64,000 bases of DNA from Nautilia sp. PV-1 (GTDB taxonomy: Bacteria; Campylobacterota; Campylobacteria; Campylobacterales; Nautiliaceae). How positions within the stretch are numbered: the first letter of the stretch is position 1; the number at the start of each line of letters is the position of its first letter. This document shows, one piece after another, positions 30,359-45,215 of this stretch. A model generated the notes under the pieces. That model did no database searches. It was not told the DNA's origin and saw nothing but the letters and a program-made list of their open reading frames with translations. The stretch covers positions 1,230,501 to 1,294,500 of the forward strand of contig NZ_CP026530.1 in the NCBI RefSeq assembly GCF_004006315.1. The letters run 5' to 3'. Position numbers and translations under genes: made by a program.

Positions 30359-31747
30359 ATGCGGAGATTTTTAATATTTTTATTTGTTTCATCGGTTTTT
30401 TTATACGGTAAATTAAATCTTACAAAAGAAGAAAACAACTTCATTAAAACACACAGCGTCAAATGTATTTTAACTCCCAACTGGGCTCCGTTTAATACTA
30501 AAATAAACGGTAAAATCGCCGGTATATCGGTTGATTATTGGAATCTGATAAAAAAAAGACTTCATTTAAAATCCGATTTTATAATCACAGACAAATGGGA
30601 AACGGTCTTAAATAAAATAAGACTTAAACAGGCCGATGTTGCCCTTTCCGCCAGCAAAACAAAAGACAGGGAAAAATATTCCATATTCACAAAACCATAT
30701 GCGGTTTTTCCTATTGCAATAGCTACAAGAAACAATATCGGCTACATAGCTTCCATGCAGTTTTTAAAAAATAAAATCATTGTAGTGGGTAAAAACTATA
30801 CTGCAGCCAGGCTTCTTAAAGAAAAATATCCGAAATTCAACATACTTGAAGTAGAAAATATTAAAACAGCCCTTAAAATGGTAAGCGAAGGAAAAGCCTA
30901 CGCAGCCATAGACATTATGCCCGTACTTATATACAACATAAACAAATATGAATTTGCAAATTTGAAAATCTCAGGCAAAACACCTCTTAAATTCAAAATG
31001 CAGTTTATGGTAAGAAATGACTATAAACCTCTTGTATCAGCGATAAACAAAGCAATTGACACAATCACACCCCGGGAAAAAAACAAAATATATTCTAAAT
31101 GGATATATGTTAATTATCAAAACGGTTTCAGTTTAAAGCAGGTGCTTATAGGCTCTTTGATAATAGGGATAATGGTTACCGTTTTATTTATTTACTGGAT
31201 TATAAGACTGAAAAAAGAAATCAAAAAAAGACACCAGCTTGAAGAGGAACTCAGAAAAATATCTTTTTACGATTCTTTGACATCAATATACAACAGATAT
31301 AAAATAGACATGTCTTTAAAAACCCAAATAGAACTTTCAAAAAGATACAAAACGCCTCTTAGCATTATTTTCTTTGATATTGACGATTTTAAAAAAATAA
31401 ACGACACTTACGGACATAAAATAGGTGACGAAGTATTAATAGAACTTTCAAAAACAATAAAAGAAAACATCAGACAGACTGACATTTTCGGAAGATGGGG
31501 AGGCGAAGAGTTTATTATTATTCTTCCAAACACTAACGTTACCGTTGCGCAAAAAATTGCTCAGAAACTAAAAAGAGTCATTGAAAATCATAATTTCCCT
31601 TTTATAAAAAAACTTACCTGCAGTTTCGGAGTTACCGAAATGAAAGAAAACGACTCAATTAACACTCTGACCGTCCGGGCGGACACTCTGCTTTATGAAG
31701 CGAAAAAACAGGGTAAAAACAGAGTTATTTCAGATTTGAACTCATAA
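30359..31747 (+). CDS. Solute-binding-domain diguanylate cyclase (second of tandem pair)
   Basis: 462 residues with the same plan as the preceding protein: signal peptide, SBP_bac_3-type domain (NWAPFNTKINGKIAGISVD; AYAAIDIMPVLIY), transmembrane helix (about 259-281) and GGDEF domain with GRWGGEEF plus inhibitory-site RQTD. The two genes arose by tandem duplication and differ mainly in the binding pocket region and tail, so they may sense different ligands. TATACT about 40 bases upstream could be a separate promoter. The 3' end overlaps the convergent response regulator by 23 bases. Confidence 0.85.
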   Translation: MRRFLIFLFVSSVFLYGKLNLTKEENNFIKTHSVKCILTPNWAPFNTKINGKIAGISVDYWNLIKKRLHLKSDFIITDKWETVLNKIRLKQADVALSASKTKDREKYSIFTKPYAVFPIAIATRNNIGYIASMQFLKNKIIVVGKNYTAARLLKEKYPKFNILEVENIKTALKMVSEGKAYAAIDIMPVLIYNINKYEFANLKISGKTPLKFKMQFMVRNDYKPLVSAINKAIDTITPREKNKIYSKWIYVNYQNGFSLKQVLIGSLIIGIMVTVLFIYWIIRLKKEIKKRHQLEEELRKISFYDSLTSIYNRYKIDMSLKTQIELSKRYKTPLSIIFFDIDDFKKINDTYGHKIGDEVLIELSKTIKENIRQTDIFGRWGGEEFIIILPNTNVTVAQKIAQKLKRVIENHNFPFIKKLTCSFGVTEMKENDSINTLTVRADTLLYEAKKQGKNRVISDLNS

Positions 31748-32402
31748 ATATTTCATCTAATTTATTGATATTTATCCTGTATTTTCTTTTTGGAAGTTTT
31801 TGAAGCACCTCTTTATCCTGTAAATCTTTAAAAAGTTTAATAAGCGTTGGTTTGCTTATATTTATTTCTTCCATTATATCGTTATAAGAAAGTGAAAAAG
31901 AATATTCGTCGTCCATGTTTTTAACTATCATTTTAATAACTTCAAGCTGTTTGCTTTCGCATATAACTGAAGCTATTTTAAATAAAAGCGTACTGTTTAC
32001 AAGCTCTTTTTCCTGATATACAGGTAAAAGCACTTCGTAAAGACTGTCTAAAAGTTCTTTTATTTTTATAGGTTTAACCAGATAATTAACGGCTTTAAGT
32101 TTTATTGCATCAAGCAGATAATCCGTTTCCGTATAAGCCGTTGTCAATATAAACGGTATGTCTATTCCGTTTTGTTTTAAAAAAGATATAAATTCAAGAC
32201 CGTTTTTATCGCCTATTAAAATATCGCTTATTATTACGTCTACATGTTTTTCTTTTATTATTTTATACGCATCGGTCGTATTTTCGGCAACAAAAAGATT
32301 TTTTACGAAATCCTCCAAAATTTCACTCAGATTTTTTAGAAGACTGCTGTCGTCTTCAATATACAATATCTTAAACTCTTTTAAAATATCATAATTTTTC
32401 AT
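31725..32402 (-). CDS. Response regulator with C-terminal helix-turn-helix
   Basis: 225 residues. The receiver domain (about 1-125) has phospho-acceptor Asp in VIISDILIGD and Lys in YLVKPIKI. The C-terminal part (about 150-225) contains a winged-helix-like motif (YNDIMEEINISKPTLIKLFKDLQDKEVL), so it probably binds DNA. It overlaps the kinase gene by 14 bases and forms a minus-strand trio with the kinase and a periplasmic binding protein. Its target genes are not evident. Confidence 0.8.
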   Translation of the reverse strand: MKNYDILKEFKILYIEDDSSLLKNLSEILEDFVKNLFVAENTTDAYKIIKEKHVDVIISDILIGDKNGLEFISFLKQNGIDIPFILTTAYTETDYLLDAIKLKAVNYLVKPIKIKELLDSLYEVLLPVYQEKELVNSTLLFKIASVICESKQLEVIKMIVKNMDDEYSFSLSYNDIMEEINISKPTLIKLFKDLQDKEVLQKLPKRKYRININKLDEIFMSSNLK

Positions 32403-33879
32403 GAGTATCCTTTATAGGAATAGTAATTTCAAACATGGCGCAATTATACATAATTTCCGTTCCCATTTTATGTCTGATATTCATAGCTTTAATTTTACCG
32501 TGCATGTGCTCTTCGATAATCTGTTTTGCCATATAAAGCCCTATTCCGCTTCCTTTGTCCTTTAATTTCGTAGTAAAATACGGTTCGAATATTTTTTCCA
32601 GATGTTCCTCTTTTATTCCTCCCCCGTTGTCGATTACACTGATTATTATTGAATTTTTTTCTTTTTTGATTATTACAAGAATCTTTTTGGGCTCAACACT
32701 GCTTTCTTTTAACGAATCTATTGCATTGTTTAATATATTCAGACACACATGTGAGAGTTCATTTTTATACCCTACAATTTTAATGTCGTCTTTTATATGT
32801 ACTTCCAGCACTATTTTATATTTTTCAAGCATGTGAGAAACCAGTTTTTTAGAATGAAATATACATTCTTTTATACTAAGAGTCTTTTTTGTCTTATCGG
32901 GTCTGAAGAAGTTTTTAAAATCATCTATAGTTTTAGACATATTATCAGCGAGTTCAAGCGCTTCTTCCGTTTTCCTGTCTATATATTCAGGGGTCAGTTT
33001 ATTCATTTCATTTTTAAGTTTTATAGACTGAAGAATCAAAGATATACTACCGAGCGGCTGCCTCCACTGATGTGCAATATTTTGAAGCATCTCACCCATT
33101 GCGGCGAGTTTGCTCTGCTGAAACATTATTTTATCTTTTTTTCTGTTTTCTTCAACGGCCTTTTTAATTCTTTTTTCAAGGTTTCTGTTTATTTTTTCAA
33201 GCTCTTTTGTTTTTTCTTTTACGGTTTTCTCAAGATCAATATGTATTTTTTTGAAATTCTCTATTATAAGTATCATAAGCGTTATACTGAAAACAAAAAC
33301 GATTACAATACTTATTATCGAAGCTTTTATTACAAAAGCAAATCTTTTGTCAGTTTTGTTTTTACGCTCAATAGCTTTTTTAATATTTGCGTTAATAATA
33401 TCCGAAAGATAAATATTTATAGTATTGATATTGTTTTTAAGATTGCCGTAATCCACAAAAGATGTATTTAAAAATTTGTCTATCTGTCCGTTAATTCTTT
33501 TCTTAAGATTCAATATATTCTGCATGACAAGAGCTTCAAATCCGAAAACATTCATTTTTTGGGAAAGATATGATTTCCATTCTTTATTAATAAGCTCTTT
33601 GGCAAGAGAAATCACCTCTTTTGCCTGTTTTAAATTTATTTCTCCGTTTTTATACTGGTTTATCGTTTCGTAAACGTTTATTTTGTATAAGTCTTTTATA
33701 TTCTCGAGTTTAACTACCGGAACCGTTCTTTTTTGAAAAAGCGTATCGATATCGTTTTTAAAAGTAAAAATAGAATACTGAGACAAAATTATAATAGTTA
33801 TCATCGCAAACAGAATAACAAATATTAAAAGTTTTGTTTTTGCAAAAAATCCGAGTCTGTCTAGGAACTTAAAATTCAT
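32389..33879 (-). CDS. Sensor histidine kinase of the binding-protein trio
   Basis: 496 residues: transmembrane helices at about 13-34 and 180-205 around a mostly helical periplasmic domain, then a coiled coil and a kinase core with the H box NIAHQWRQPLGS, N box CLNILNNAIDSL and G boxes DNGGGIKEEH and GSGIGLYMAK. The HQWRQPL form is common in Campylobacterota kinases. It overlaps the upstream binding-protein gene by four bases and the downstream regulator by 14, so the three act as a unit. The likely stimulus is relayed from the binding protein encoded at 33876-34973. Confidence 0.85.
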   Translation of the reverse strand: MNFKFLDRLGFFAKTKLLIFVILFAMITIIILSQYSIFTFKNDIDTLFQKRTVPVVKLENIKDLYKINVYETINQYKNGEINLKQAKEVISLAKELINKEWKSYLSQKMNVFGFEALVMQNILNLKKRINGQIDKFLNTSFVDYGNLKNNINTINIYLSDIINANIKKAIERKNKTDKRFAFVIKASIISIVIVFVFSITLMILIIENFKKIHIDLEKTVKEKTKELEKINRNLEKRIKKAVEENRKKDKIMFQQSKLAAMGEMLQNIAHQWRQPLGSISLILQSIKLKNEMNKLTPEYIDRKTEEALELADNMSKTIDDFKNFFRPDKTKKTLSIKECIFHSKKLVSHMLEKYKIVLEVHIKDDIKIVGYKNELSHVCLNILNNAIDSLKESSVEPKKILVIIKKEKNSIIISVIDNGGGIKEEHLEKIFEPYFTTKLKDKGSGIGLYMAKQIIEEHMHGKIKAMNIRHKMGTEIMYNCAMFEITIPIKDTHEKL

Positions 33880-34973
33880 TTTATTTCTTTAAACTGTCTG
33901 TTTTTATATATGTATAAATATGTTTTGTTAAGAAGCTGATTGTTTTTATAATTTATTTTAATTCCTTGTAGAAAGTTTTTCGGCGTGTTTTTAATTATAC
34001 TAATTAAATGAAAAGGCGTATACGGAAATGAAAGTTTTTCAAAAGCCCTTAATAGTATTTTATTGGCCAGATACGCCTCAAAAGCAAAAAAAGTCGGCTG
34101 TTTTTCAGGATATAATTTCTTAAGCTCTTTTTTAAACAGTACCGCTTCTTTAATGTTTTTATCGTTGTAATAAGGCACAACTTCCGAAAAGATAATATTT
34201 TTTTTATTTTTCAAAAGTTTAACCAATATATCGGGATTGACAAAGGAAATTGTACAAAAAACCGTTTTAGGATCAATTTTTCTGTATTTTTCAATAAACA
34301 TGGCGCTGACTTTAGAAGTACTGCCCATTATTATAGCCTGAGGTCTGTTGTGAGATATTTCATTAAGAGCGGAAGTTATAAAAAACGTATTTCTTTTGTA
34401 TGTTCCGACACCGTTAAGTTTTAAATTTCTGTTTTTCAATATTTTATACGTCTGATAGTAAATCTCGTTTCCGTATTCGTCATTCTGATAAAAAACACCG
34501 ATTTTCTTAATATTGTGTTTTAAAAGATATTTTACGATTTTTTTTATTTCATCTTTATATGACGCCCTGAAGTTTATTACATATCTGTTTTTTCTTAAAA
34601 ATTCGGCCCCAGTAAACGGAGCATACAGATAAATTGAATTATCATTCAAAAAAGGTAAAATTTCTTTTACCGTAGGTGTTCCGACAATACCGTACATTAA
34701 AAACACATTCTGTTTATAAAGTTTTTTTATATTTTCTTTTGTAAGTTTAGGCTCATATTTATCATCTAAAAACTCATATTTTATTTTCTTTCTAAAACCG
34801 TCGGAATAAAAATCAAAGCTAATATCAGTTCCCAGTCTTACGGTATTTCCCATTTCATTCATAATACCTTTCAAAGGCAGGGATGAACCTATTAAATAAA
34901 CTTTTCTGGAGTTATTAAAATAATAAAAACCGATAAGAATAATTAATATAGACAAAGCTGCTATTTTTTTCAA
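33876..34973 (-). CDS. Periplasmic LivJ/urea-type ligand-binding protein of a sensory trio
   Basis: 365 residues with an N-terminal hydrophobic segment (signal or anchor, about 3-20) and a type I periplasmic binding fold like LivJ and AmiC-type proteins (LIGSSLPLKGIMNEMG; IGVFYQNDEYGNEIYYQTYKIL). No ABC transporter genes are adjacent. Because it is translationally coupled to a histidine kinase and response regulator, it most likely serves as a sensor subunit that presents a ligand to the kinase. The ligand is unknown. Confidence 0.75.
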   Translation of the reverse strand: MKKIAALSILIILIGFYYFNNSRKVYLIGSSLPLKGIMNEMGNTVRLGTDISFDFYSDGFRKKIKYEFLDDKYEPKLTKENIKKLYKQNVFLMYGIVGTPTVKEILPFLNDNSIYLYAPFTGAEFLRKNRYVINFRASYKDEIKKIVKYLLKHNIKKIGVFYQNDEYGNEIYYQTYKILKNRNLKLNGVGTYKRNTFFITSALNEISHNRPQAIIMGSTSKVSAMFIEKYRKIDPKTVFCTISFVNPDILVKLLKNKKNIIFSEVVPYYNDKNIKEAVLFKKELKKLYPEKQPTFFAFEAYLANKILLRAFEKLSFPYTPFHLISIIKNTPKNFLQGIKINYKNNQLLNKTYLYIYKNRQFKEIK

Positions 34974-35106: not shown

Positions 35107-36759
35107 ATGATTGAATACGTATATTTTTCAAATGAACTTGAATTCCCTTTGCCAGAAAGCATTACCTTCACTAACAACAGTTCCGAAAAAGCCATTATAT
35201 CCAACTCGAAACAGATTGAAGCGGAAATTTACGCTCCGGAAATAGATTTTTATATTAAAAATAGTGAAGACGAAACTCTGAAAAAAATAGAAAACATTGA
35301 AAAACTTTACCAAATCAGAGGTATTAAATTCGACAGTGCGAAATACAACGAATATGAAAAAGAAATCGGCAACAAAGTTTTAGTTATAGGCAATAAAGAA
35401 CAGGCCGAAAAACTTTCCTTGGATGATTTTGAAGTTTATTACGCCCTTCCGGAATGGATTAAAAACATTACTGGAACAATAGGCGCTCTTGAATTTACCA
35501 TAGATAAAAACGGAGAAACAATAAAACTCTCAGTCGATCAGGCAATATGGTTCAATGCTCCCGATGCTGCTTATAAACAAAGAGGAATTGTAGACCCGGA
35601 AGACATCGGAATTGAAAAAAGCACCGAAATATTAAAAAAAAGAGCAGGAATATACGGCTACCGAAACTATATAACATACGACATAAACATATGTCAGTAT
35701 AACGGCCGCGTACTTAAAGAAACATGCGGAAATTGTGCTGATGTATGTCCGACAAACGCAATTTTAAAAATAGACGAAGAAAAAAAACTTCTTTTTTCAC
35801 ATATAGACTGTGACGGATGCGGAGGATGCGTAAGCGTATGTCCAAGCGGAGCGCTTGATTTCTCAGCTGTTCCGAGAGACACTTTTGAAGAAATATCGAA
35901 ATTTTATAAAAACACAATACCTTTAATACTTCCTGAAGATTTAATTGACAGTTTAAATATAAAACTAAAACCAAACGTTTTGCCTCTTGCAATAGAAGGC
36001 GCGAAATTCTTGGATGAAACACATTTTTTAACCTTAGTTCAGGAAAGTTCTTCACAGATTGTTTTCTATACCGACAGACTCTCAAAAGGGGAAAAAGAAG
36101 CAATTGATCTGATAAATGCCGTTTATGAAAAAATATACAATAAAAAAGCGGTTCTTTTAGCCCAAAATGAAGAAGAACTAAAATCCGTATTAAATAAAGC
36201 CGAATTATCCCCTGAATTCTCATACACTATAAATCCACAATCTGCAAAAAAAAGAGAAAAATTCGCAATGAGACTTTCCGCGGTTGTAGATAAAGATTAC
36301 GGTATTATCGACCTTAACGGCAACAGTTATATACATTACGGAAAAATAGAAATAGATGCTGATAAATGTACACTTTGCATGGGATGCGTAAGCGTATGCA
36401 ACGCCGGAGCATTAACAGCTCATCCTGAAGACAATTCCCTTAAATTCGATGCAGGCGTATGTACGGACTGCGGATATTGCGAAATAGCGTGTCCGGAAAA
36501 ATGCATTGACGTTATTTATGACAGACTTGAGTTAAATCCAGAATATTTCGGCCAGAAAACAATGGCGGTTGACGAGCCTTTTTACTGCATAATGTGCGGT
36601 AAACCGTTTGCCACCAAAAAATCAATCGCAAAAATCGCTTCAATGCTGCTGCCTGTTTTTACGGATGAAATAAAGAAAAAATCTATTTACTGCTGTCAGG
36701 ATTGCAAAGCAAAACTAGTATTTAGCGACTATTTAGAAAGGAAACTTAATGAAAAATAG
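35107..36759 (+). CDS. Multi-cluster ferredoxin-like protein of the formate dehydrogenase locus
   Basis: 550 residues. It contains four 4Fe-4S-type motifs: CGNCADVCPTNA and CDGCGGCVSVCPSGA in the middle, and CTLCMGCVSVC and CTDCGYCEIACPEKC near the C-terminus, followed by an extra CIMCG...CCQDC pair that could hold zinc or another cluster. Campylobacter genomes carry a similar ferredoxin near sel and fdh genes. It is probably an electron carrier or maturation factor for formate dehydrogenase rather than a catalytic subunit. The fdhM-type chaperone gene begins 11 bases before its stop. Confidence 0.75.
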   Translation: MIEYVYFSNELEFPLPESITFTNNSSEKAIISNSKQIEAEIYAPEIDFYIKNSEDETLKKIENIEKLYQIRGIKFDSAKYNEYEKEIGNKVLVIGNKEQAEKLSLDDFEVYYALPEWIKNITGTIGALEFTIDKNGETIKLSVDQAIWFNAPDAAYKQRGIVDPEDIGIEKSTEILKKRAGIYGYRNYITYDINICQYNGRVLKETCGNCADVCPTNAILKIDEEKKLLFSHIDCDGCGGCVSVCPSGALDFSAVPRDTFEEISKFYKNTIPLILPEDLIDSLNIKLKPNVLPLAIEGAKFLDETHFLTLVQESSSQIVFYTDRLSKGEKEAIDLINAVYEKIYNKKAVLLAQNEEELKSVLNKAELSPEFSYTINPQSAKKREKFAMRLSAVVDKDYGIIDLNGNSYIHYGKIEIDADKCTLCMGCVSVCNAGALTAHPEDNSLKFDAGVCTDCGYCEIACPEKCIDVIYDRLELNPEYFGQKTMAVDEPFYCIMCGKPFATKKSIAKIASMLLPVFTDEIKKKSIYCCQDCKAKLVFSDYLERKLNEK

Positions 36760-37486
36760 AGAAATAAACGAAGCCAGAGCTTTTTATTACGGATTTTTTT
36801 CAAAACTTTTTACGTTCAGTTATGATAAAAACAGATTTGAAGGCGTTAAAGAGGCGGCTGAGCTTTTATATCAAAACGCTCTTGAAGAAAACTCCAAAAA
36901 AGCGCTGGCACACTTTATAGAAAACTTTAATGAAAAAAAACTGGCAGACGAATATGACGAAATATTCTACGACCTTTCACAGGATCCCGTGCCTACAACA
37001 GCTTCATTTTACGATGAAGAAATAGAAAACGGAAAAATGAAAGTAAAAATGGTTGATATAGTATTAGGCTCAAAATTCAGGAAAAACGAAGAATACAAAG
37101 ACAGCGAAGACGATATCGGTTTTATTTTTCCTTTCATGCAGCATCTAATACTTGAAAAACTCAAAGGAGATGAAAAATCCGAGTGGCTTGAAAATAAAAC
37201 ATTCGATATTTTAAATACATTTATCGACGAATTTACGGAAAATGTCTATATGCATCAGGCTTCGGATCTTTACAAAGACATAGCAGTGGTGTTAAAAGCT
37301 TTTACAGAAACGGAAAGACTGTTTTTGGAAAAACCTAAACCTGTAATAGAAAAAATAAAAAAAGAAAGTTGTGAAGTCTGTATAGCAGACGAAGAAGCGG
37401 CTATCAGAAAAAGAAACAAAAAAAGACAAAACAATACAATGGTATGTAATCTTGAAGAAGGCGGAGATGTTGAAGATGAAGTTTAA
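36749..37486 (+). CDS. fdhM: TorD-family chaperone for formate dehydrogenase (FdhM-like)
   Basis: 245 residues, mostly helical, with TorD/DmsD-family features (RAFYYGFFSKLF at the N-terminus; DEIFYDLSQDPVPTTASFYDE). The C-terminus has two Cys (CEVC) and a basic, then acidic tail. Such chaperones bind Tat signal peptides and deliver cofactor to molybdenum enzymes. Its position between the polyferredoxin and fdhXABC suggests it serves FdhA. It overlaps the polyferredoxin gene by 11 bases. The hairpin array follows the stop codon. Confidence 0.75.
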   Translation: MKNREINEARAFYYGFFSKLFTFSYDKNRFEGVKEAAELLYQNALEENSKKALAHFIENFNEKKLADEYDEIFYDLSQDPVPTTASFYDEEIENGKMKVKMVDIVLGSKFRKNEEYKDSEDDIGFIFPFMQHLILEKLKGDEKSEWLENKTFDILNTFIDEFTENVYMHQASDLYKDIAVVLKAFTETERLFLEKPKPVIEKIKKESCEVCIADEEAAIRKRNKKRQNNTMVCNLEEGGDVEDEV

Positions 37487-37524
37487 AAAATTGAGAATTG
37501 AGAATGGAGAATTGAGAATTAAAA
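37487..37524. repeat. Copy of a GAATTGAGAATGGAG-type low-complexity repeat
   Basis: The segment contains TTGAGAATTGAGAATGGAG followed by AATTGAGAATT. A closely matching copy in inverse orientation lies at 60092-60130, and a degenerate copy (AAGAATGGAAAATGAAGAATT) at 59920-59940. All three are directly beside stop codons or in gaps, so they look like dispersed intergenic repeats. Confidence 0.5.
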
Positions 37525-37531
37525 TATTACT

Positions 37532-37819
37532 GCAAAATGCATATTTTGCGGGGCATTGCCGGGGTTCCCAGAAAGTCTTTAGACTTTTTGGGGTGTAAAA
37601 GATAACCGCAGAGCTTGCCGAGCTTTGCCGTTATCTCTTACGAGATAAATCCGAACGTTGTATTCCTAAAAGTTTTTTAGGAATCCGGCCTTATAAATTC
37701 TAAAGTTTATAAGACCGGCATTGTAAATTTTGAATTTACAATGCAGTTAAAAGATTGCTCCGGAAAAAACTTTTGGAGCAACAAAACGGAGGTCACCGCA
37801 AAACCATAATTTTGCGGTG
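37532..37819. repeat. Array of about eight consecutive palindromes upstream of the fdhXABC operon
   Basis: The 353-base gap between fdhM and fdhX holds no gene but a run of hairpins. Stem arms: 37532-37538/37543-37549 (7 bp); 37567-37577/37582-37592 (about 10); 37601-37615/37621-37635 (13 with mismatches); 37631-37637/37642-37648 (7, competing with the previous stem); 37662-37671/37675-37684 (10, perfect); 37685-37697/37706-37718 (12, one mismatch); 37718-37729/37733-37744 (12, perfect); 37755-37761/37775-37781 (7); 37794-37803/37810-37819 (10, perfect). Stem sequences differ from one another. The last ends about 10 bases before the fdhX ribosome site, so part of it is probably in the operon leader. 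Confidence 0.75.
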
Positions 37820-37839
37820 TATCAAAAAAAGGAGTAAAA

Positions 37840-38031
37840 ATGAAAAGAAGAAGCTTTCTTAAAGGAGCTCTCGGAATCGGAGCACTGAGTGTCGCTTCTT
37901 CAACACTGAGTTTTGCCAAGTCCGCTCAGCCGGAATATGACAACGGTGTAGTAAGAGGACACTCTCCTAAAAAAGAGATTCTTTACCGCAAAACCAAATA
38001 TTGGGAAATTTATTACAAAAATGCCATTTAA
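37840..38031 (+). CDS. Formate dehydrogenase region small Tat-target protein (FdhX)
   Basis: 63 residues: a twin-arginine signal (KRRSFLKGALGIGALS...SFA) and a short polar tail (HSPKKEILYRKTKYWEIYYKN). It matches the small Tat-target family that sits immediately before fdhA in Campylobacterota and other Proteobacteria (TIGR02811-type). Its role is not firmly known; it may help export or assembly of the FdhAB complex. It has a strong GGAG site and lies 10 bases before fdhA, downstream of the hairpin array. Confidence 0.8.
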   Translation: MKRRSFLKGALGIGALSVASSTLSFAKSAQPEYDNGVVRGHSPKKEILYRKTKYWEIYYKNAI

Positions 38032-38041
38032 GGAGTAAAAA

Positions 38042-40867
38042 ATGAGCTCACTTGAAAAAATGAATCCAAAAGTGGGTAGAAGGGCCTTTTTAAAAATGGC
38101 AGCACTATCCGGAGTTGCAGGGGCTACAATGCTCAGCGCAGCACCGGCACTTAGAAATGCTACCGATGAAGAGATCAAAGACCCTTACCCGGGAAGTAAA
38201 AAAGTTAAAACAGTATGTACTACCTGTTCGGTAGGTTGCGGAATTATTGCAGAAGTTTATAACGGCGTGTGGGTAAGACAGGAAGTCGCTCAAGACCATC
38301 CAATCAGCCACGGAAGCCACTGCTGTAAAGGTATAGATTCAATCGATTATATAAGAACTGAAAAAAGGGTAAAACACCCTCTTAAAAAAGTAAACGGAAA
38401 ATGGAAAAGAATAAGCTGGGAAGAAGCTATTAACGAAATTAGCGAAAAAATGCTTCAAATCAGAAAAGAAAGCGGACCGGATGCCGCAATGTTCCTCGGA
38501 AGTGCGAAAATGAGCACAGAGCAGGCATATTATTTCAGAAAATTTGCCGCAATGTGGGGAACTAACAATATAGATCACCAAGCGCGGATCTGACACAGCG
38601 CAACAGTCGCGGGGGTCGCGAATACATGGGGTTACGGCGCAATGACAAACCACCTTGGAGATATCCAAAATTCTAAAGCAATTATTATATTCGGTGCAAA
38701 TCCTGCTGTTAACCATCCTGTCGGATTTAAACATATATTAAAAGCAAAAGAAAGAAACAATGCAGTTTTAATCGTGGTAGATCCTAGATATACCAAAACA
38801 GCTGCAAAAGCGGATATTTATGCAAGAATAAGACCTGGTACGGATATTCCTTTTATGTACGGTATGCTTCATCTGATCTTCAAAAACGGATGGCACGATC
38901 CTGATTACATCAAAAACAGAGTATTCGGAATGGATCATGTTATTAAAGAAGCCAAAAAATGGACACCTGAAAAAGTTGCCGACGTTACAGGAGTTCCTGC
39001 GGACTTAATTTATAAAATAGCAAAAGTTTATGCTACAAACAAACCTGGAACACTTCTTTGGGCAATGGGATTGACTCAGCACTCAATAGGTTCATCCAAT
39101 ACAAGAATGGCACCTATACTTCAGTTAGCACTTGGAAACATGGGTAAATTCGGAGGAGGATGTAATATTTTAAGAGGTCATGACAACGTACAGGGTGCAA
39201 CTGACATGTGCTGTCTGTCACATACACTGCCTGGATATTACGGTTTAAGTGAAGGCAGCTGGAAATATTTTGCTCATAACTGGGGTGTTGATTTTAAATG
39301 GCTTCAAAACAGATTTGCCGCTAAAAAATGGATGCATACAAAAGGCTTCACATTGGCAAAATGGTGGCAGGGAGTATTACAGGAAGAAAAAATATACTCA
39401 ACTTCACCGATAAGAGCTTTATGGGTACAGGGTAACGGTATTACTTCAATTTCTCAAACTGCAAAAGTACAACAGGCACTTGATAAACTTGATTTATTGG
39501 TAATTGCCGAACCTTTTGCAAACGAAGCTGCCGTTATTACCAACAAAAAAGACAATGTTTATATCCTTCCGACTGCCAGCCAGTTCGAATGTGAAGGAAG
39601 CGTAACCGCTACAAACAGGACGGCTCAATGGAGAAGCAAAGTAGTTGATCCTTTATATGAAAGTAAAACAGATGAAGACATTATGTTTACCTTCGCTAAG
39701 AAATTCGGCTTTTACGATGAATTCGTAAGAGGCATGATGATGGGCGTAAAAGACGGAAAAGCGGTTAAAGTTAAAAACAGCTTTAAATGGCCTGAAGACG
39801 CAACCAGAGAAATAGCAAGAATTATAAAAACCATAGGTCTTACCGGATGGACTCCTGAAAGACTTAAAAAACATCAGCAAAACTGGCATATGTTTGACGA
39901 AGTCACACTTAAAGGTATCGGACCAATGAAAGGCGAATACTACGGACTTCCATGGCCATGCTGGACTGAAACTCACAGCGGAAGCCCTGTACTGTACAAC
40001 ATTGATATCCCTGTAAGCGAAGGAGGTATGGGATTCAGAGCCAGATTCGGTACAGAATATAAAGGTGAAAACCTCTTAGCCGGACCTAGAGCGACAATCA
40101 AAGGAGCTAAAGTAAGAGGAGGATACCCTGAACTTACAAAAGAAAATATTGAAAAAGTTCTCGGAATTAAACTTTCACCTCATGAAAAAGCTATTATGGG
40201 TAAAAACTGGAAAGTGGATTTAAGCGGACTTATCGCAAAATACGCACTTAAAGCAGGCGTAGCGCCTTACGGTAACGCAAAAGCCAGAGCATACGTATGG
40301 ACATTCCCTGATAAAATACCTCTACACAGAGAACCGCTCCATACACCAAGATATGATTTGGCTAAAAAATATCCGACTTATCCTGATAAAAAAGATCAGT
40401 ATAGAGTTGATACAAAATTTGCATCAATTCAAAAAACAGACTGGGCAAAAGAGTTCCCTATCATTCTTACAACAGGCCGTCTTGTAATGTACAGCGGTGC
40501 CGGTCTCATCGAAAGAGAAAGCAAATACCTCTCAGCTCTTCAGCCTGATATGTTTGCAAGTATCAATCCGGAACTTGCTTATAAACACGGTATCAATGAC
40601 GGGGATATGATATGGATTCATGCACCTGAAGGCACTAAAATAAAAGTAAAAGCAAGATTTACCTATGCAGTGTCACCGGACAGAATCTTCTTGCCGTTCC
40701 ACTGGGCCGGAATTATGCAGGGCGTTGATATGAGTGCAAATTATCCGGAAGACACAAAACCGTATACAATAGGCGAATCAGCCAATACGGTGGCAAACTA
40801 CGGATATGACATTGTTACCCAGATTCCTGAAACAAAAGCGGGCTTAGTCCGTATTGAAAAAGCGTAA
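38042..40867 (+). CDS. fdhA: Formate dehydrogenase catalytic subunit FdhA, selenocysteine-containing
   Basis: 941 residues when the in-frame UGA at 38591-38593 is read as Sec184. The context NIDHQARI-U-HSATVAG is the conserved active site of Sec formate dehydrogenases (Sec binds Mo/W, next to the catalytic His). A Tat signal (GRRAFLKMAALSG) precedes the CTTCSVGC...C 4Fe-4S motif near residues 60-90. The frame before and after the UGA is intact, so this is not a frameshift. A naive caller would report two genes (38042-38593 and 38642-40867). It oxidises periplasmic formate and passes electrons through FdhB and FdhC to menaquinone. Confidence 0.95.
38591..38621 (+). promoter_or_regulatory. fdhA: Sec UGA and SECIS hairpin in fdhA
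   Basis: UGA at 38591-38593; 13 bases later a stem TCGCG / CGCGA (38607-38611 with 38617-38621) encloses loop GGGGT. Position and G/U-containing loop resemble the E. coli fdhF SECIS, the SelB-binding signal. It is locally much more GC-rich than the surrounding gene. Confidence 0.7.
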
Positions 40868-40877
40868 GGAGTAGAAA

Positions 40878-41474
40878 ATGTATGATTATGCAAGAATGAA
40901 ATTTTACTGTGACGAAGACAGATGTATAGAATGTAACGCCTGCAGTGTAGCTTGTTCTGAAGCTCACGAACTGCCGGTAGGTATACACAGAAGAAAAGTT
41001 GTTACGCTTAACGAAGGAATCGAGGGTAAAGAATTTTCAACGTCAATAGCATGTATGCACTGTACCGACGCTCCATGTGCCCAGGTATGTCCGGTTGAGT
41101 GTTTTTATATCAGAGAAGACGGTATCGTACTTCATGATAAAGAAAAATGTATCGGATGCGGTTATTGTCTTTACGCCTGTCCTTTTGGTGCACCTCAGTT
41201 CCCGAGAGACGGTGCGTTCGGTATTAGAGGGGTAATGGATAAATGTACTATGTGTGCAGGAGGACCTGCTCCTACCAACTCAATAAAAGAATTTGAACTT
41301 TACGGACAAAACAGAATAGCAGAAGGAAAAGTTCCTATGTGCGCAGCAGTTTGTTCAACAAACGCATTATTAGTGGGAGATGCCGACAGCGTATCTACAA
41401 TTATCAGAGAAAGAAACGCAGCAAAAGGTAAAGGCCCTATGACACCATACGGTTGGGATGTAGCCTATAAATAA
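40878..41474 (+). CDS. fdhB: Formate dehydrogenase iron-sulfur subunit FdhB
   Basis: 198 residues with four 4Fe-4S motifs: CIECNACSVAC, CMHCTDAPCAQVC, CIGCGYCLYAC and CTMC with CAAVC. There is no signal sequence, so it is probably exported by riding with FdhA through Tat. It links FdhA to the cytochrome b subunit. It is 10 bases after fdhA and nine before fdhC, with a GGAG site. Confidence 0.92.
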   Translation: MYDYARMKFYCDEDRCIECNACSVACSEAHELPVGIHRRKVVTLNEGIEGKEFSTSIACMHCTDAPCAQVCPVECFYIREDGIVLHDKEKCIGCGYCLYACPFGAPQFPRDGAFGIRGVMDKCTMCAGGPAPTNSIKEFELYGQNRIAEGKVPMCAAVCSTNALLVGDADSVSTIIRERNAAKGKGPMTPYGWDVAYK

Positions 41475-41483
41475 GGATCTGTT

Positions 41484-42404
41484 ATGAAAAAATTATTGCC
41501 TTTTATTGGCAGTCTGTTACTAGCTGGCGAAGTTCCTTTGGCAGAGCCTAATATGGCTCCTGCTAAAGACGGATTAATTTCCCCGCAAATGATAGAAGCC
41601 ATCCCTAAATGGAATCATTACGGGGAATTATTCGTATATTTACAGACACATTGGATTAAAATGCTGTTTTTAATTATATTAATTGCAGTACCAACCGTAT
41701 TTTTACTGCACTATTTAATAATAGGACCTAAAAAATTTTCTCATGAAGGAAGAAAATTTTTAGTTTTTCCGAGCTGGCAAAGAATAATTCACTGGATTGC
41801 AGCTTTAGGATTTATATTTTTAATTCCTACCGGAATATTAATAATATACGCCAAATTTTTTGGAGGAGGAAGTTTTGTAAGATTTGCAAGATACCTTCAC
41901 GACATAGGTGCAGCACTTTTTGCCGTTGCTGTAATTCCTATGTTTTTAATGTGGCTCAAAGACATGCTTCCTAAAATCTGGGATATTAAATGGTTTATGA
42001 TTTTAGGAGGATATCTAAGTAAAGAAAAAAAAGAAGTTCCGGCAAGCAAATTCAACGCCGGACAGAAAATGTGGTATTGGATTGCTACAATCGGAGGAAT
42101 CGTTATGATTACGACTGGTCTTATGATGTATGTACAGGATTTTGATATAACCCTTCTTAAAAGCTTTAATTTATATCAAATCGATTTATTAAGACTTGCC
42201 GTCATAACTCATCTGTTTTTGGCGATGCTTATAATCGCATTTTTCATGACTCACCTTTATATGAGTGTTTTTGCGATCAAAGGTTCATTAGACAGTATGA
42301 TTGACGGATGCAAAAGTGAAGATGAATTAAAATATCTTCATTCGGTGTTTTATAAAAAAATAATCAAAGAAGGCAAAGACAAAGAGTTAGCCGAAAAATG
42401 TTAG
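41484..42404 (+). CDS. fdhC: Formate dehydrogenase cytochrome b subunit FdhC
   Basis: 306 residues: an N-terminal hydrophobic segment, then four main transmembrane helices of the FdnI/FdoI-type cytochrome b family. His residues are suited to heme ligation (WQRIIHWIAA; HDIGAALFAV; THLFLAML; MTHLYMSV). It anchors FdhAB at the membrane and reduces menaquinone. It is the last gene of the operon, followed at once by a strong terminator at 42404. Confidence 0.88.
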   Translation: MKKLLPFIGSLLLAGEVPLAEPNMAPAKDGLISPQMIEAIPKWNHYGELFVYLQTHWIKMLFLIILIAVPTVFLLHYLIIGPKKFSHEGRKFLVFPSWQRIIHWIAALGFIFLIPTGILIIYAKFFGGGSFVRFARYLHDIGAALFAVAVIPMFLMWLKDMLPKIWDIKWFMILGGYLSKEKKEVPASKFNAGQKMWYWIATIGGIVMITTGLMMYVQDFDITLLKSFNLYQIDLLRLAVITHLFLAMLIIAFFMTHLYMSVFAIKGSLDSMIDGCKSEDELKYLHSVFYKKIIKEGKDKELAEKC

Positions 42405-42503: not shown

Positions 42504-43439
42504 ATGAAAAAAACAGCTTTGATTTTAATACTTTCGATACTTTGCTTTGCAAAACAGCAGATTATAATATTTCACGCAGGCAGTTTAAGCGTGCCGTTTT
42601 CAGAAATGGCAAAGGCTTTTGAAAAAAAATACCCCCAATATGACGTCATAAGAGAAGCTGCTGGAAGCCGAGCATGTGCCAGGAAAATAACGGACCTTCA
42701 CAAAAAAGCCGATATTATGGCAAGTGCGGATTACAAAGTAATTGACAACCTTTTAATGCCCAAATACGCCAAATTCAACGTGCTGTTCGCGACAAATGAA
42801 ATGGTAATAGCTTATACACCTAAATCAAGATATGCAAACATCATAAATCAAAACAATTGGACCCAAATACTTCTAAAACCAGATGTAAAAGTCGGACACT
42901 CAAACCCTAATCTTGATCCGTGCGGATACAGAAGCGTACTTGTTGCCAAGCTAGCGGCAATTTATTACAAAAAACCCGATTTTTATAAAAATCTTTTAGG
43001 CTACGGAGATTTTTATAAAAACGGGGAAGAAAATCCAAAAATTATAGTCAGACCGAAAGAAACGGATCTTTTAGGACTTTTGGAAGCCGGAGCGTTTGAT
43101 TATCTATTTATTTATAAATCAGTGGCTATTCAGCATCATTTAAAATTCATACAGCTTCCTCCCCAGATAAATCTGGGCAGTAAAAAATATACTAATTATT
43201 ACAAACAGGTAAGTTTCAAAGTAACCGGCAAAAAACCGGGTACATTTATTGTAAAAAAAGGCGCCCCTATGGTTTACGGTATAACGATGGTGGAAAATTC
43301 AAAAGAAGGTCTGCCTCCAAACGAAAAAGGAGCAGAACTTTTCTTAAAATTTGTACTCTCACCTCAGGGAGAGGCCATAATGAAAAAAAACGGACAAGGA
43401 GTCATTAACCCTCCTGTAATTGAAGGTAAATGGGAATAA
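42504..43439 (+). CDS. wtpA: Tungstate/molybdate-binding protein WtpA
   Basis: 311 residues: signal peptide (about 1-16, LCFAK) and an oxyanion-binding fold of the WtpA/ModA family, with the hallmark segments FHAGSLSVPF, EAAGSRACARKI, IMASADYKVI and LDPCGYRSVL. These match the archaeal-type WtpA that binds tungstate and molybdate tightly. With the ATPase and permease that follow it imports the metal for the molybdopterin enzymes. The location just after fdhC suggests the formate dehydrogenase may prefer tungsten, an inference consistent with a thermophilic vent lifestyle. Confidence 0.88.
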   Translation: MKKTALILILSILCFAKQQIIIFHAGSLSVPFSEMAKAFEKKYPQYDVIREAAGSRACARKITDLHKKADIMASADYKVIDNLLMPKYAKFNVLFATNEMVIAYTPKSRYANIINQNNWTQILLKPDVKVGHSNPNLDPCGYRSVLVAKLAAIYYKKPDFYKNLLGYGDFYKNGEENPKIIVRPKETDLLGLLEAGAFDYLFIYKSVAIQHHLKFIQLPPQINLGSKKYTNYYKQVSFKVTGKKPGTFIVKKGAPMVYGITMVENSKEGLPPNEKGAELFLKFVLSPQGEAIMKKNGQGVINPPVIEGKWE

Positions 43440-43440
43440 A

Positions 43441-44424
43441 ATGAACAATAAACTGCTTGAAATAAAAGACCTGTTTTTAAAAAAAGGCAAATTTAAATTA
43501 AATATTCTCTCTTTGGATATTTACAAAAACGAATATTTTGTTCTGCTGGGGAAAACGGGCAGCGGAAAAACGCTGCTGCTTGAAAGTATCGCCGGATTTC
43601 AGACAATTGAAGGCGAAATTCTTTTCAAAGAAAAAGAGATCACAAACCTCCCTCCTGAAAAAAGAAATTTCGGCTTTTTATATCAGGATTTTGCATTGTT
43701 TCCCCACCTGAATGTAGAACAAAATATACGTTTTTCGGAAAAATATCATAAAAAAAACGAAGAACTTTTTAACGATCTTGTCTCTTTTTTGGAGCTCAAA
43801 AAAATACTTAAAAGAGACATAAAACACTTAAGCGGCGGTGAGAAACAAAGAACGGCGCTAGCAAGAGCGGTATACTCACAGCCTGAACTGTTACTTTTAG
43901 ACGAACCTCTAAGCGCCGTCGATCCTACTATAAGAAACGAAATTATGAAGAACTTAAAAAAACTGCCGGGAAGATATAATCTCTCCGTCATTCACGTAAC
44001 GCATAATTTCAGAGAAGCGTCATACCTGGCAGACAGACTGGGAATCATTCTAAAAGGCACACTTCTTCAGGCAGGAGACGCCAAAGAGGTTCTAAAAAAC
44101 CCGAATTCAATTGAAGTGGCACAGTTTCTGGGATTTAAAAATCTTTTTGATATTGCGCTTCTTGGATTTGAAAACTCTCACAAATATTTTTCTATTGATC
44201 CAAACCAGATAACAATTTCAAAAGAGCCTCTAAACAGCGATTACTGTTTTGAAGGAATTATTGAAGAGATAATGGGAATAACAGACCATTACAAAATATT
44301 CGTAAATGTTCGAAAAAACCAGTTTTTTATTAAATCGCCTAAAAAAACATTTGAAAAATTAGGATTAAAAAAAGGTGACAAAATATATATTTGTTTCAAT
44401 AAAAAAGATATAGTGTTTATATAG
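43441..44424 (+). CDS. wtpC: Tungstate/molybdate ABC transporter ATP-binding protein
   Basis: 327 residues from the ATG at 43441, which follows the wtpA stop by one base; a start at 43420 would lie inside wtpA. Walker A is GKTGSGKT, the signature LSGGEKQR and Walker B LLLLDEPLSAVD. A C-terminal TOBE-like extension (about 250-327) could bind the oxyanion and regulate activity, as in ModC. It energises uptake through WtpA and WtpB. Confidence 0.88.
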   Translation: MNNKLLEIKDLFLKKGKFKLNILSLDIYKNEYFVLLGKTGSGKTLLLESIAGFQTIEGEILFKEKEITNLPPEKRNFGFLYQDFALFPHLNVEQNIRFSEKYHKKNEELFNDLVSFLELKKILKRDIKHLSGGEKQRTALARAVYSQPELLLLDEPLSAVDPTIRNEIMKNLKKLPGRYNLSVIHVTHNFREASYLADRLGIILKGTLLQAGDAKEVLKNPNSIEVAQFLGFKNLFDIALLGFENSHKYFSIDPNQITISKEPLNSDYCFEGIIEEIMGITDHYKIFVNVRKNQFFIKSPKKTFEKLGLKKGDKIYICFNKKDIVFI

Positions 44425-44453
44425 GGTGAAGGAAAAAGGATGAAGGAGGGAAA

Positions 44454-45215
44454 ATGATGAAAAAAATTTTTATAATATTAGCCGCATGTTTAATGCTGTT
44501 TTTAACTTTGCCTTTACTGAAACTGATATTTGGGGTAAATGCTATTTCATATATTGAAGCCTTAAAAGACACAGAAGTTTTAAAATCTATTTTCCTTACT
44601 ATGAAGGTCTCTTTCTTTGCAACTCTGTTTGTTTTATTTACCGGTCTGCCTCTTGCGTATATTATCGCAAGATACGATTTTTTCGCTAAAAGTCTGCTTG
44701 AGAGTATGATAGACATTCCGACAATGGTTCCGCATACGGCTGCAGGTATTGCTTTACTGATGACGTTCGGAGGAGAAAATATTCAAAATTTTTTAAGTAA
44801 ACTAGGCCTGGGATTTATCGATTCGACAACCGGCATAATGGCTGCAATGATGTTTCTTTCGGCGCCATATTTAATAAATTCGGCAAAAGAAGGATTTAAA
44901 AACGTAGACGTAAAGCTTGAAAATATTTCCCGCTCTCTTGGAGCCGGGCCATTTGAAACCTTTATTAAAATAGTTATTCCTAACGCAAAAAAAGACATTA
45001 TTAACGGAATGCTTATGATGTGGGCAAGAGGTCTTGGAGAATTCGGAGCTGTGGTAATAATCGCTTATCATCCGATGATTGCACCGGTACTTATTTATGA
45101 CAGATTCGTAAATTTTGGACTCAATTATTCCGCTCCGGTGGCGGCGTTGATGATTATTTTTTCTGTTATTATTTTCTCAACAATCAGATGGCTTAACAAC
45201 AGATTCGGCAATTGA
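44454..45215 (+). CDS. wtpB: Tungstate/molybdate ABC transporter permease
   Basis: 253 residues, about six transmembrane helices, with the permease loop motif SLGAGPFETFIKIVIPNAKK (EAA-like) that contacts the ATPase. Two successive ATG codons are possible starts after a GGAGG site; the first is given. The gene order is wtpA-wtpC-wtpB. Its 3' end overlaps the convergent selU gene by 39 bases. Confidence 0.85.
   Translation: MMKKIFIILAACLMLFLTLPLLKLIFGVNAISYIEALKDTEVLKSIFLTMKVSFFATLFVLFTGLPLAYIIARYDFFAKSLLESMIDIPTMVPHTAAGIALLMTFGGENIQNFLSKLGLGFIDSTTGIMAAMMFLSAPYLINSAKEGFKNVDVKLENISRSLGAGPFETFIKIVIPNAKKDIINGMLMMWARGLGEFGAVVIIAYHPMIAPVLIYDRFVNFGLNYSAPVAALMIIFSVIIFSTIRWLNNRFGN

Follow-up and report, generated by a model that had tools for sequence, protein, structure and literature searches.

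A conserved RNA element with two competing predicted folds between fdhM and fdhX of Campylobacterales and its hairpin-rich form in Nautilia

The fdh locus and its row of hairpins

The window analyzed here, a stretch of 64,000 nucleotides from the complete 1.79-Mb genome of Nautilia sp. PV-1 (G000), contains a gene cluster for a formate dehydrogenase (Table 1). The product of fdhM was assigned to the TorD/NarJ chaperone family by its Pfam match; its match to the NCBIfam TorD model (E 2.3e-8) is under the model cut-off. FdhM (Cj1514) of C. jejuni is a formate dehydrogenase-specific chaperone (PMC4148689). The match of the short fdhX product to the Pfam TAT_signal model (E 8.5e-4) is also under the cut-off. 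In fdhA, an in-frame TGA at 38591-38593 was read as selenocysteine (Sec184, ..QARI-U-HSATV..), and ORF callers divide the gene into two at this codon. A tungstate transporter locus, WtpA-WtpC-WtpB (42504-45215), adjoins fdhC on the downstream side. The genes at 31725-34973, for the response regulator and histidine kinase of a two-component system and for a periplasmic binding protein, are divergent from the fdh cluster, and the system is a candidate regulator.

Table 1. Features of the fdh locus, in window coordinates; the dispersed copies in the last row are given as positions in the genome.
Feature	Position	Strand	Basis or remark
Polyferredoxin gene	35107-36759		upstream of fdhM
fdhM, TorD/NarJ-family chaperone	36749-37486	+	Pfam PF02613, E 5.5e-12; stop codon 37484-37486
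7-mer minisatellite GAATTGA/GAATGGA	37487-37522	+	dispersed repeat
H1 hairpin, CTGCAAAATGCATATTTTGCGG	37530-37551	+	Nautilia layer
H2, member of dispersed 41-nt palindromic family	37560-37600, stem 37567-37592	+	model R3, 53 bits, E 8.7e-13
P1, core hairpin, long form	37595-37641	+	pairing in orthologs, compensatory changes, same place in 21 genera
A, strand at P1 base	37599-37605		
A', strand at P1 base	37631-37637		
P2, core hairpin, alternative form	37631-37648	+	A' (TTATCTC) pairs with A'' (GAGATAA)
A'', downstream copy of A	37642-37648	+	
H4 hairpin	37662-37684	+	common to G002
H5 hairpin	37685-37717	+	common to G002
H6 hairpin, perfect 12-bp stem	37718-37744	+	common to G002
H7 hairpin	37755-37781	+	
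H8 hairpin	37794-37819	+	ends 20 nt before fdhX start codon; weak member of dispersed family (18.5 bits)
Shine-Dalgarno AGGAG of fdhX	37830-37834	+	sequence
fdhX, 63-aa TAT-signal protein	37840-38031	+	first gene 3' of the element
fdhA, formate dehydrogenase alpha, selenoprotein	38042-40867	+	
fdhB	40878-41474	+	
fdhC	41484-42404	+	
Dispersed 41-nt palindrome copies, G000	92674, 378238, 881106, 1323179, 1519716		

A sequence-only reading of the window had pointed to an array of palindromes directly before the formate dehydrogenase operon. Its position was found to be inside the gene cluster, with fdhM on one side and fdhX-fdhA(Sec)-fdhB-fdhC on the other. The arrangement with fdhM upstream and fdhX-fdhABC downstream on the same strand spans a gap of 62-100 nt in most genomes. 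To our knowledge, no mechanism has been established by which formate dehydrogenase subunits and their chaperone are balanced from a single operon, and no account of such balancing was found in the literature searched.

The segment 37530-37819 is filled by eight hairpins and one competing hairpin, P2, and four of the stems are perfect over 8-12 bp. Folding of the RNA from 37500 to 37850 gave a minimum free energy of -120.3 kcal/mol, compared with -74.2 ± 5.4 kcal/mol for 100 dinucleotide shuffles (z = -8.6; 0/100 as good), which confirms that the row of hairpins is real. With DNA parameters the z score of the array was -9.2, and four strict perfect hairpins were observed where 0.065 were expected. 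In the 864 kb scanned (48% of the genome), the array was the sole cluster of at least five hairpins at score thresholds of 8 and 7; at threshold 9 it counted as a cluster of four and was the sole cluster of at least three. A direct-repeat search found no near-identical units, in agreement with the earlier view that the array is neither a tandem repeat nor a CRISPR array.

A promoter-like match, TTGAGA-16-TAAAAT (37498-37525), overlaps the minisatellite and was rejected as a chance-level match, no better than those in shuffled sequences.

A core element conserved in Campylobacterales

Comparison with related genomes separated two layers at the locus, a core at 37595-37648 and hairpins confined to Nautilia around it. 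The entire gap in the sister genera G003, G004, G008 and G009 measures 62-70 nt and holds the core alone, in the order GAGATAA, variable stem, TTATCTC, short spacer and GAGATAA, followed by the Shine-Dalgarno sequence. The gaps of Nautilia add hairpins on both sides, indicating that the core is older and the rest is an expansion in Nautilia.

The hairpin P1 is supported by pairing in 91% of cells in the Nautiliaceae alignment, and by six pairs in which both partners have changed; its covariation score was 0.268, compared with 0.149 in shuffles. P2 is invariant within Nautiliaceae, with the GAGATAA of A'' constant there, and is therefore uninformative in this family alone. Of 399 Campylobacterales genomes sampled, 168 have an fdhX ortholog, and 89 gaps upstream of fdhX were examined. 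P1 was over threshold in 61 of the 89, from 21 genera and six families (f1, f9, f10, f14, f16 and f20). Carriers include Malaciobacter halophilus, Arcobacter cryaerophilus, Poseidonibacter lekithochrous and Sulfurospirillum arcachonense as well as Sulfurimonas and Sulfurovum bins. Campylobacter (f11), f15 and one Helicobacteraceae-like genus, whose gap measures 8 nt, have either no core or a degenerate one; some Helicobacter and the fdhX relatives in Desulfobulbales and Desulfurellaceae are also without it. Comparison of the gaps in relatives, as the sequence-only reading had proposed, thus revealed compensatory changes in P1, joint change of three strands (below) and turnover of the outer hairpins. 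That reading would have been refuted if no other array occurred in the genome and pairing was not conserved in relatives: the 48% of the genome scanned contained no second array, but the pairing is kept.

Within Nautiliaceae, the model R1 matched the core solely at the fdhM-fdhX gap (next best match E 9e-4), indicating a one-locus element in this family. Searches of the window and 19 orthologous loci with 4227 Rfam models gave no match at the gathering threshold; RUF2 and the Na+ riboswitch appeared at E ≤ 5, under gathering, and were rejected as chance-level matches. The element is not described in the literature searched, whose coverage ended short of subscription papers on Wolinella fdh transcripts. 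A riboswitch for a metabolite or metal (tungstate or molybdenum cofactor, selenium) would suit a tungsten- and selenium-dependent enzyme, given that FdhA is a selenoprotein and that the Wtp tungstate transporter lies downstream. Against this, loops and stem sequences vary freely, conserved unpaired residues for a binding pocket are missing, and Rfam was silent at its gathering thresholds; we regard a riboswitch as very unlikely.

The two neighboring stems that had been noted to compete (37601-37635 and 37631-37648) are this conserved core, and their two folds are predicted to be mutually exclusive. For the analysis of the third strand, A' was taken as the basal 12 nt of the P1 3' arm, set blind to the downstream sequence, and was scored by its best helix with the sequence after P1, up to the Shine-Dalgarno region. 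The automatic "best fold" of P1, which often merged A'' into P1, was kept out of the statistics. The A'-A'' complementarity was 7.29 with the element's own downstream sequence versus 4.56 with those of other families (per-genus mean), and it was higher in 21 of 21 genera (Wilcoxon p 6e-5). When ranked against shuffles of its own downstream sequence, the complementarity was far from uniform (KS 1e-10), with 72% of the elements at rank ≤ 0.1 compared with 12% of 85 strong hairpins elsewhere in G000 (p 8e-15), related genomes being non-independent events in these three-strand statistics. The A'' site was located by search and the controls were searched identically; the control hairpins matched the chance expectation for third-strand pairing.

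The letters of the three strands change together. Across the elements 26 different A' hexamers were counted, and A and A'' are 79% identical within one genome versus 33% between families. One f14 genus has the strands GTAGGG/CCCTAC, in which purines and pyrimidines are swapped, indicating that complementarity and not sequence is conserved. This bears on the possibility that GAGATAA forms half-sites of a DNA operator for a transcription factor: the constancy of the A'' letters in Nautiliaceae would fit such sites, but between families the letters are wholly different while complementarity is kept, and we consider an operator extremely improbable. A three-strand element found at one locus in most families with 26 sets of letters makes an unusually clear case that competing RNA folds are under selection. 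As judged from these sequence comparisons, the core is an RNA element conserved through most Campylobacterales families, with two competing predicted folds.

Dispersed palindromes in the Nautilia layer

The array was compared among three Nautilia genomes, namely G000, G002 (1,676,444 bases) and G001 (a 7714-base contig). All keep the core and carry extra hairpins on both sides; H4, H5 and H6 are common to G000 and G002, and the rest differ. A model built from array modules (R2) matched other sites in Nautiliaceae genomes, consisting of the palindrome CGGGGTCCCC-GAAAAATCGTAAGATTTTTT-GGGGTATAGAG, often beside GAATTGA/GAATGGA minisatellites. The minisatellite itself is dispersed in Nautiliaceae, a query bearing it giving 25 matches in G000 and 39 in G002. 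A regular array with a 21-nt period was also seen in G002 (725819-726144).

A further model, R3, was built from the dispersed copies alone, with array members excluded. R3 recovered H2 as its match in the window's array and also matched two modules of G002 and three of G001 (E 1.5e-4 or better); it matched H8 weakly and gave no match to H4-H7. The claim that the stem sequences differ therefore holds for most of the row, with the exception of H2 and, weakly, H8, which belong to one diverged family of dispersed palindromes. R3 matches numbered at least about six to nine per Nautilia genome and at least a few in most other Nautiliaceae, these counts being lower bounds from 150 candidates scored per genome. 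The palindrome modules were paired in 95.5% of cells, with a covariation score of 0.477 versus 0.286 in shuffles.

Short intergenic palindromes that are dispersed in the genome, and clustered at the fdh locus in the Nautilia layer, are reminiscent of REP/BIME elements. They differ in their number, at least about 6-9 matches in a complete Nautilia genome, and in that none lies beside the sole Y1 transposase gene. That gene (Y1_Tnp, 415866-416195, in a 251-aa frame) is the single one of its kind in G000, and a REP/RAYT link was rejected when the 20-kb stretch around it yielded no R3 match. Most Nautiliaceae genomes have one copy of a Y1 transposase-domain gene.

The Nautilia array could be nothing but a landing place for such palindromes in a tolerant gap, with function residing in the core at most. 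H2 and the modules of G001 and G002 were matched by a model built without them, palindrome copies are dispersed in most Nautiliaceae, and the hairpins differ among the three Nautilia species, all of which would be expected of a landing place. It would not account for the last hairpin of the array, whose end lies 20, 22 and 23 nt from the start codon in the three species (H8 in the window), nor for the finding that 7 of 9 changed pairs between G000 and G002, a small sample, still pair; the core is also left unexplained, as it predates Nautilia. We judge this explanation somewhat unlikely for the array, and passive accumulation confined to the outer hairpins would leave room for a functional core. 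Among the roles offered by the sequence-only reading, a structured leader or processing element agrees with the core, as a structured mRNA element, and a mosaic of mobile palindromes agrees with the outer Nautilia hairpins.

Geometry of the element and a proposed cut-and-refold mechanism

The length of P1 is held at a median of 22 bp (10-90% range 19-25) while its sequence varies. A transcription attenuator or terminator would account for two mutually exclusive hairpins, and a terminator-like match lies at 37608-37628. However, a U-run of at least five was found behind P1 in none of the 61 elements, terminator-like matches were not above those in shuffles, and a Shine-Dalgarno sequence rather than a U-run follows P2 in most genera. 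These results bear out the earlier statement that the array is not an ordinary terminator, and attenuation is highly improbable. Attenuators share three strands and two exclusive hairpins with the fdh element, which differs from them in lacking a terminator U-tract and a leader peptide and in lying inside a putative operon.

The strand shared by P1 and P2 is the basal 7-11 nt of the P1 3' arm, the part expected on the 3' product after a cut in P1. In 39 of the 55 cases outside Nautilia, the distance from the end of A'' to the start codon is 20-24 nt, compared with 24% (maximum 38%) for shuffled downstream sequence. This spacing is not kept in Nautilia, where A'' lies 106-236 nt from the start codon (191 nt in the window). 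The old place of A'' appears to be held by a new hairpin there, as the last Nautilia hairpin ends at that distance from the start codon. The predicted probability of P2 was 1e-4 in uncut RNA versus a median of 0.90 in a modelled 3' product starting 12 nt above the P1 base, with 0.86-0.96 in all seven Nautiliaceae; for 17 of 58 elements, the modelled cut product favored a fold other than P2. G002 has a disturbed P1 base. Since P1 is far more stable than P2 (medians -21.8 and -6.6 kcal/mol), P2 is predicted hardly to form without a cut.

Some Arcobacteraceae (three loci) carry an extra hairpin between A' and A'', and A'' (GGGGCTTA) stays near -22; this is a second, independent hairpin insertion in the core element. 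A palindrome of the type ATATGC-N(4-8)-GCATAT was noted upstream of fdhX in genomes that resemble Sulfurospirillum, Arcobacter and Desulfobulbales, particularly where the gap is long, and looks like a shared operator.

P1 and P2 might also exchange without a cut, through a ribosome ending at the fdhM stop codon or through a protein, with P2 tuning the initiation of fdhX. In favor of such a translational switch, the fdhM stop codon and the start of P1 are separated by a median of 11.5 nt, and A'' keeps a constant distance to the start codon, close to where an initiating ribosome would have its upstream edge. In a quarter of the genomes, however, P1 is more than 37 nt (up to 225) from the stop codon, beyond the reach of the terminating ribosome; the Shine-Dalgarno sequence lies outside P2, and the difference of about 15 kcal/mol in favor of P1 would have to be overcome. 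We consider a switch of this kind unlikely.

The reading we prefer involves cleavage. In the full-length transcript, A would pair with A' to form P1, a stable hairpin with about 22 bp. An enzyme specific for double strands, most likely RNase III, would cut within P1, splitting the gene groups and parting A from A'. Once free, A' would pair with A''. The resulting P2 would stand at the 5' terminus of the shortened fdhX-fdhABC message, close to the ribosome binding site but not overlapping it, and may serve there as a cap that hinders RNase J from degrading the RNA in the 5'-to-3' direction. Messages for the enzyme would thereby outnumber those for the chaperone, by selective RNA processing and stabilization (SRPS). 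In Nautilia, the space before and behind P2 has been filled with hairpins, some from the dispersed family, and the array may act as a series of reserve 5' barriers.

The observed and computed basis of this proposal comprises the anatomy, the predicted competition of folds, the conservation, the three-strand co-variation, the spacing and the genes for both nucleases. RNase III was chosen as the putative cutter because of the helix length of P1 only. G000 encodes RNase III and an RNase J-type enzyme, and no RNase E/G was found above the cut-off in any of 31 relatives. It counts against the proposal that Campylobacter, some Helicobacter and the relatives in Desulfobulbales and Desulfurellaceae manage without the element. 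The whole chain, in which we infer the P1 cut, RNase III as the enzyme, protection by P2 and the stoichiometric purpose, is quite possible, if a little short of probable.

In position and form the element resembles SRPS elements such as those of the cip-cel operon of Ruminiclostridium cellulolyticum, where intercistronic stem-loops of an operon for a multi-subunit complex guide a cut and then stabilize the processed ends (PMC4423207, PMC10311766), and it would likewise suit cutting and end protection. P1 is, as expected of such elements, a stable and conserved non-terminator stem-loop in the gap. In cip-cel, the stem-loop that guides the cut itself protects, whereas in the fdh element the protecting hairpin would form after the cut by exchange of the third strand; cutting has been shown for the former and is predicted for the latter. 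The element would act in an SRPS-like manner, and its membership of the class hinges on the inferred cut.

In Bacillus subtilis cggR-gapA, the transcript is cut between a first gene of low demand and a second one of high demand, and a hairpin stands at the new 5' end. The cut proposed for the fdh element would likewise fall between genes of presumably low and high demand and leave a hairpin at the new 5' end. In cggR-gapA, RNase Y cuts outside a pre-formed hairpin and no competing long hairpin is involved, unlike in the fdh element. In the metastable type I toxin mRNAs (hok and H. pylori aapA), processing triggers refolding of the mRNA, a feature shared with the proposed mechanism. These differ in that 3'-end processing controls toxin translation, and their sequence and setting are unrelated to those of the fdh element.

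It is possible, though doubtful, that the element represents a new class of mRNA element in Campylobacterota, a cleavage-activated self-capping switch maintained in most families of the order by three-strand co-variation and extended in Nautilia to a row of caps through captured palindromes. Formate dehydrogenase is a main electron-donor enzyme of Campylobacterota, and the element yields a concrete prediction for its message, a cut in P1 followed by refolding. The Nautilia array shows dispersed palindromes added to a conserved RNA element.
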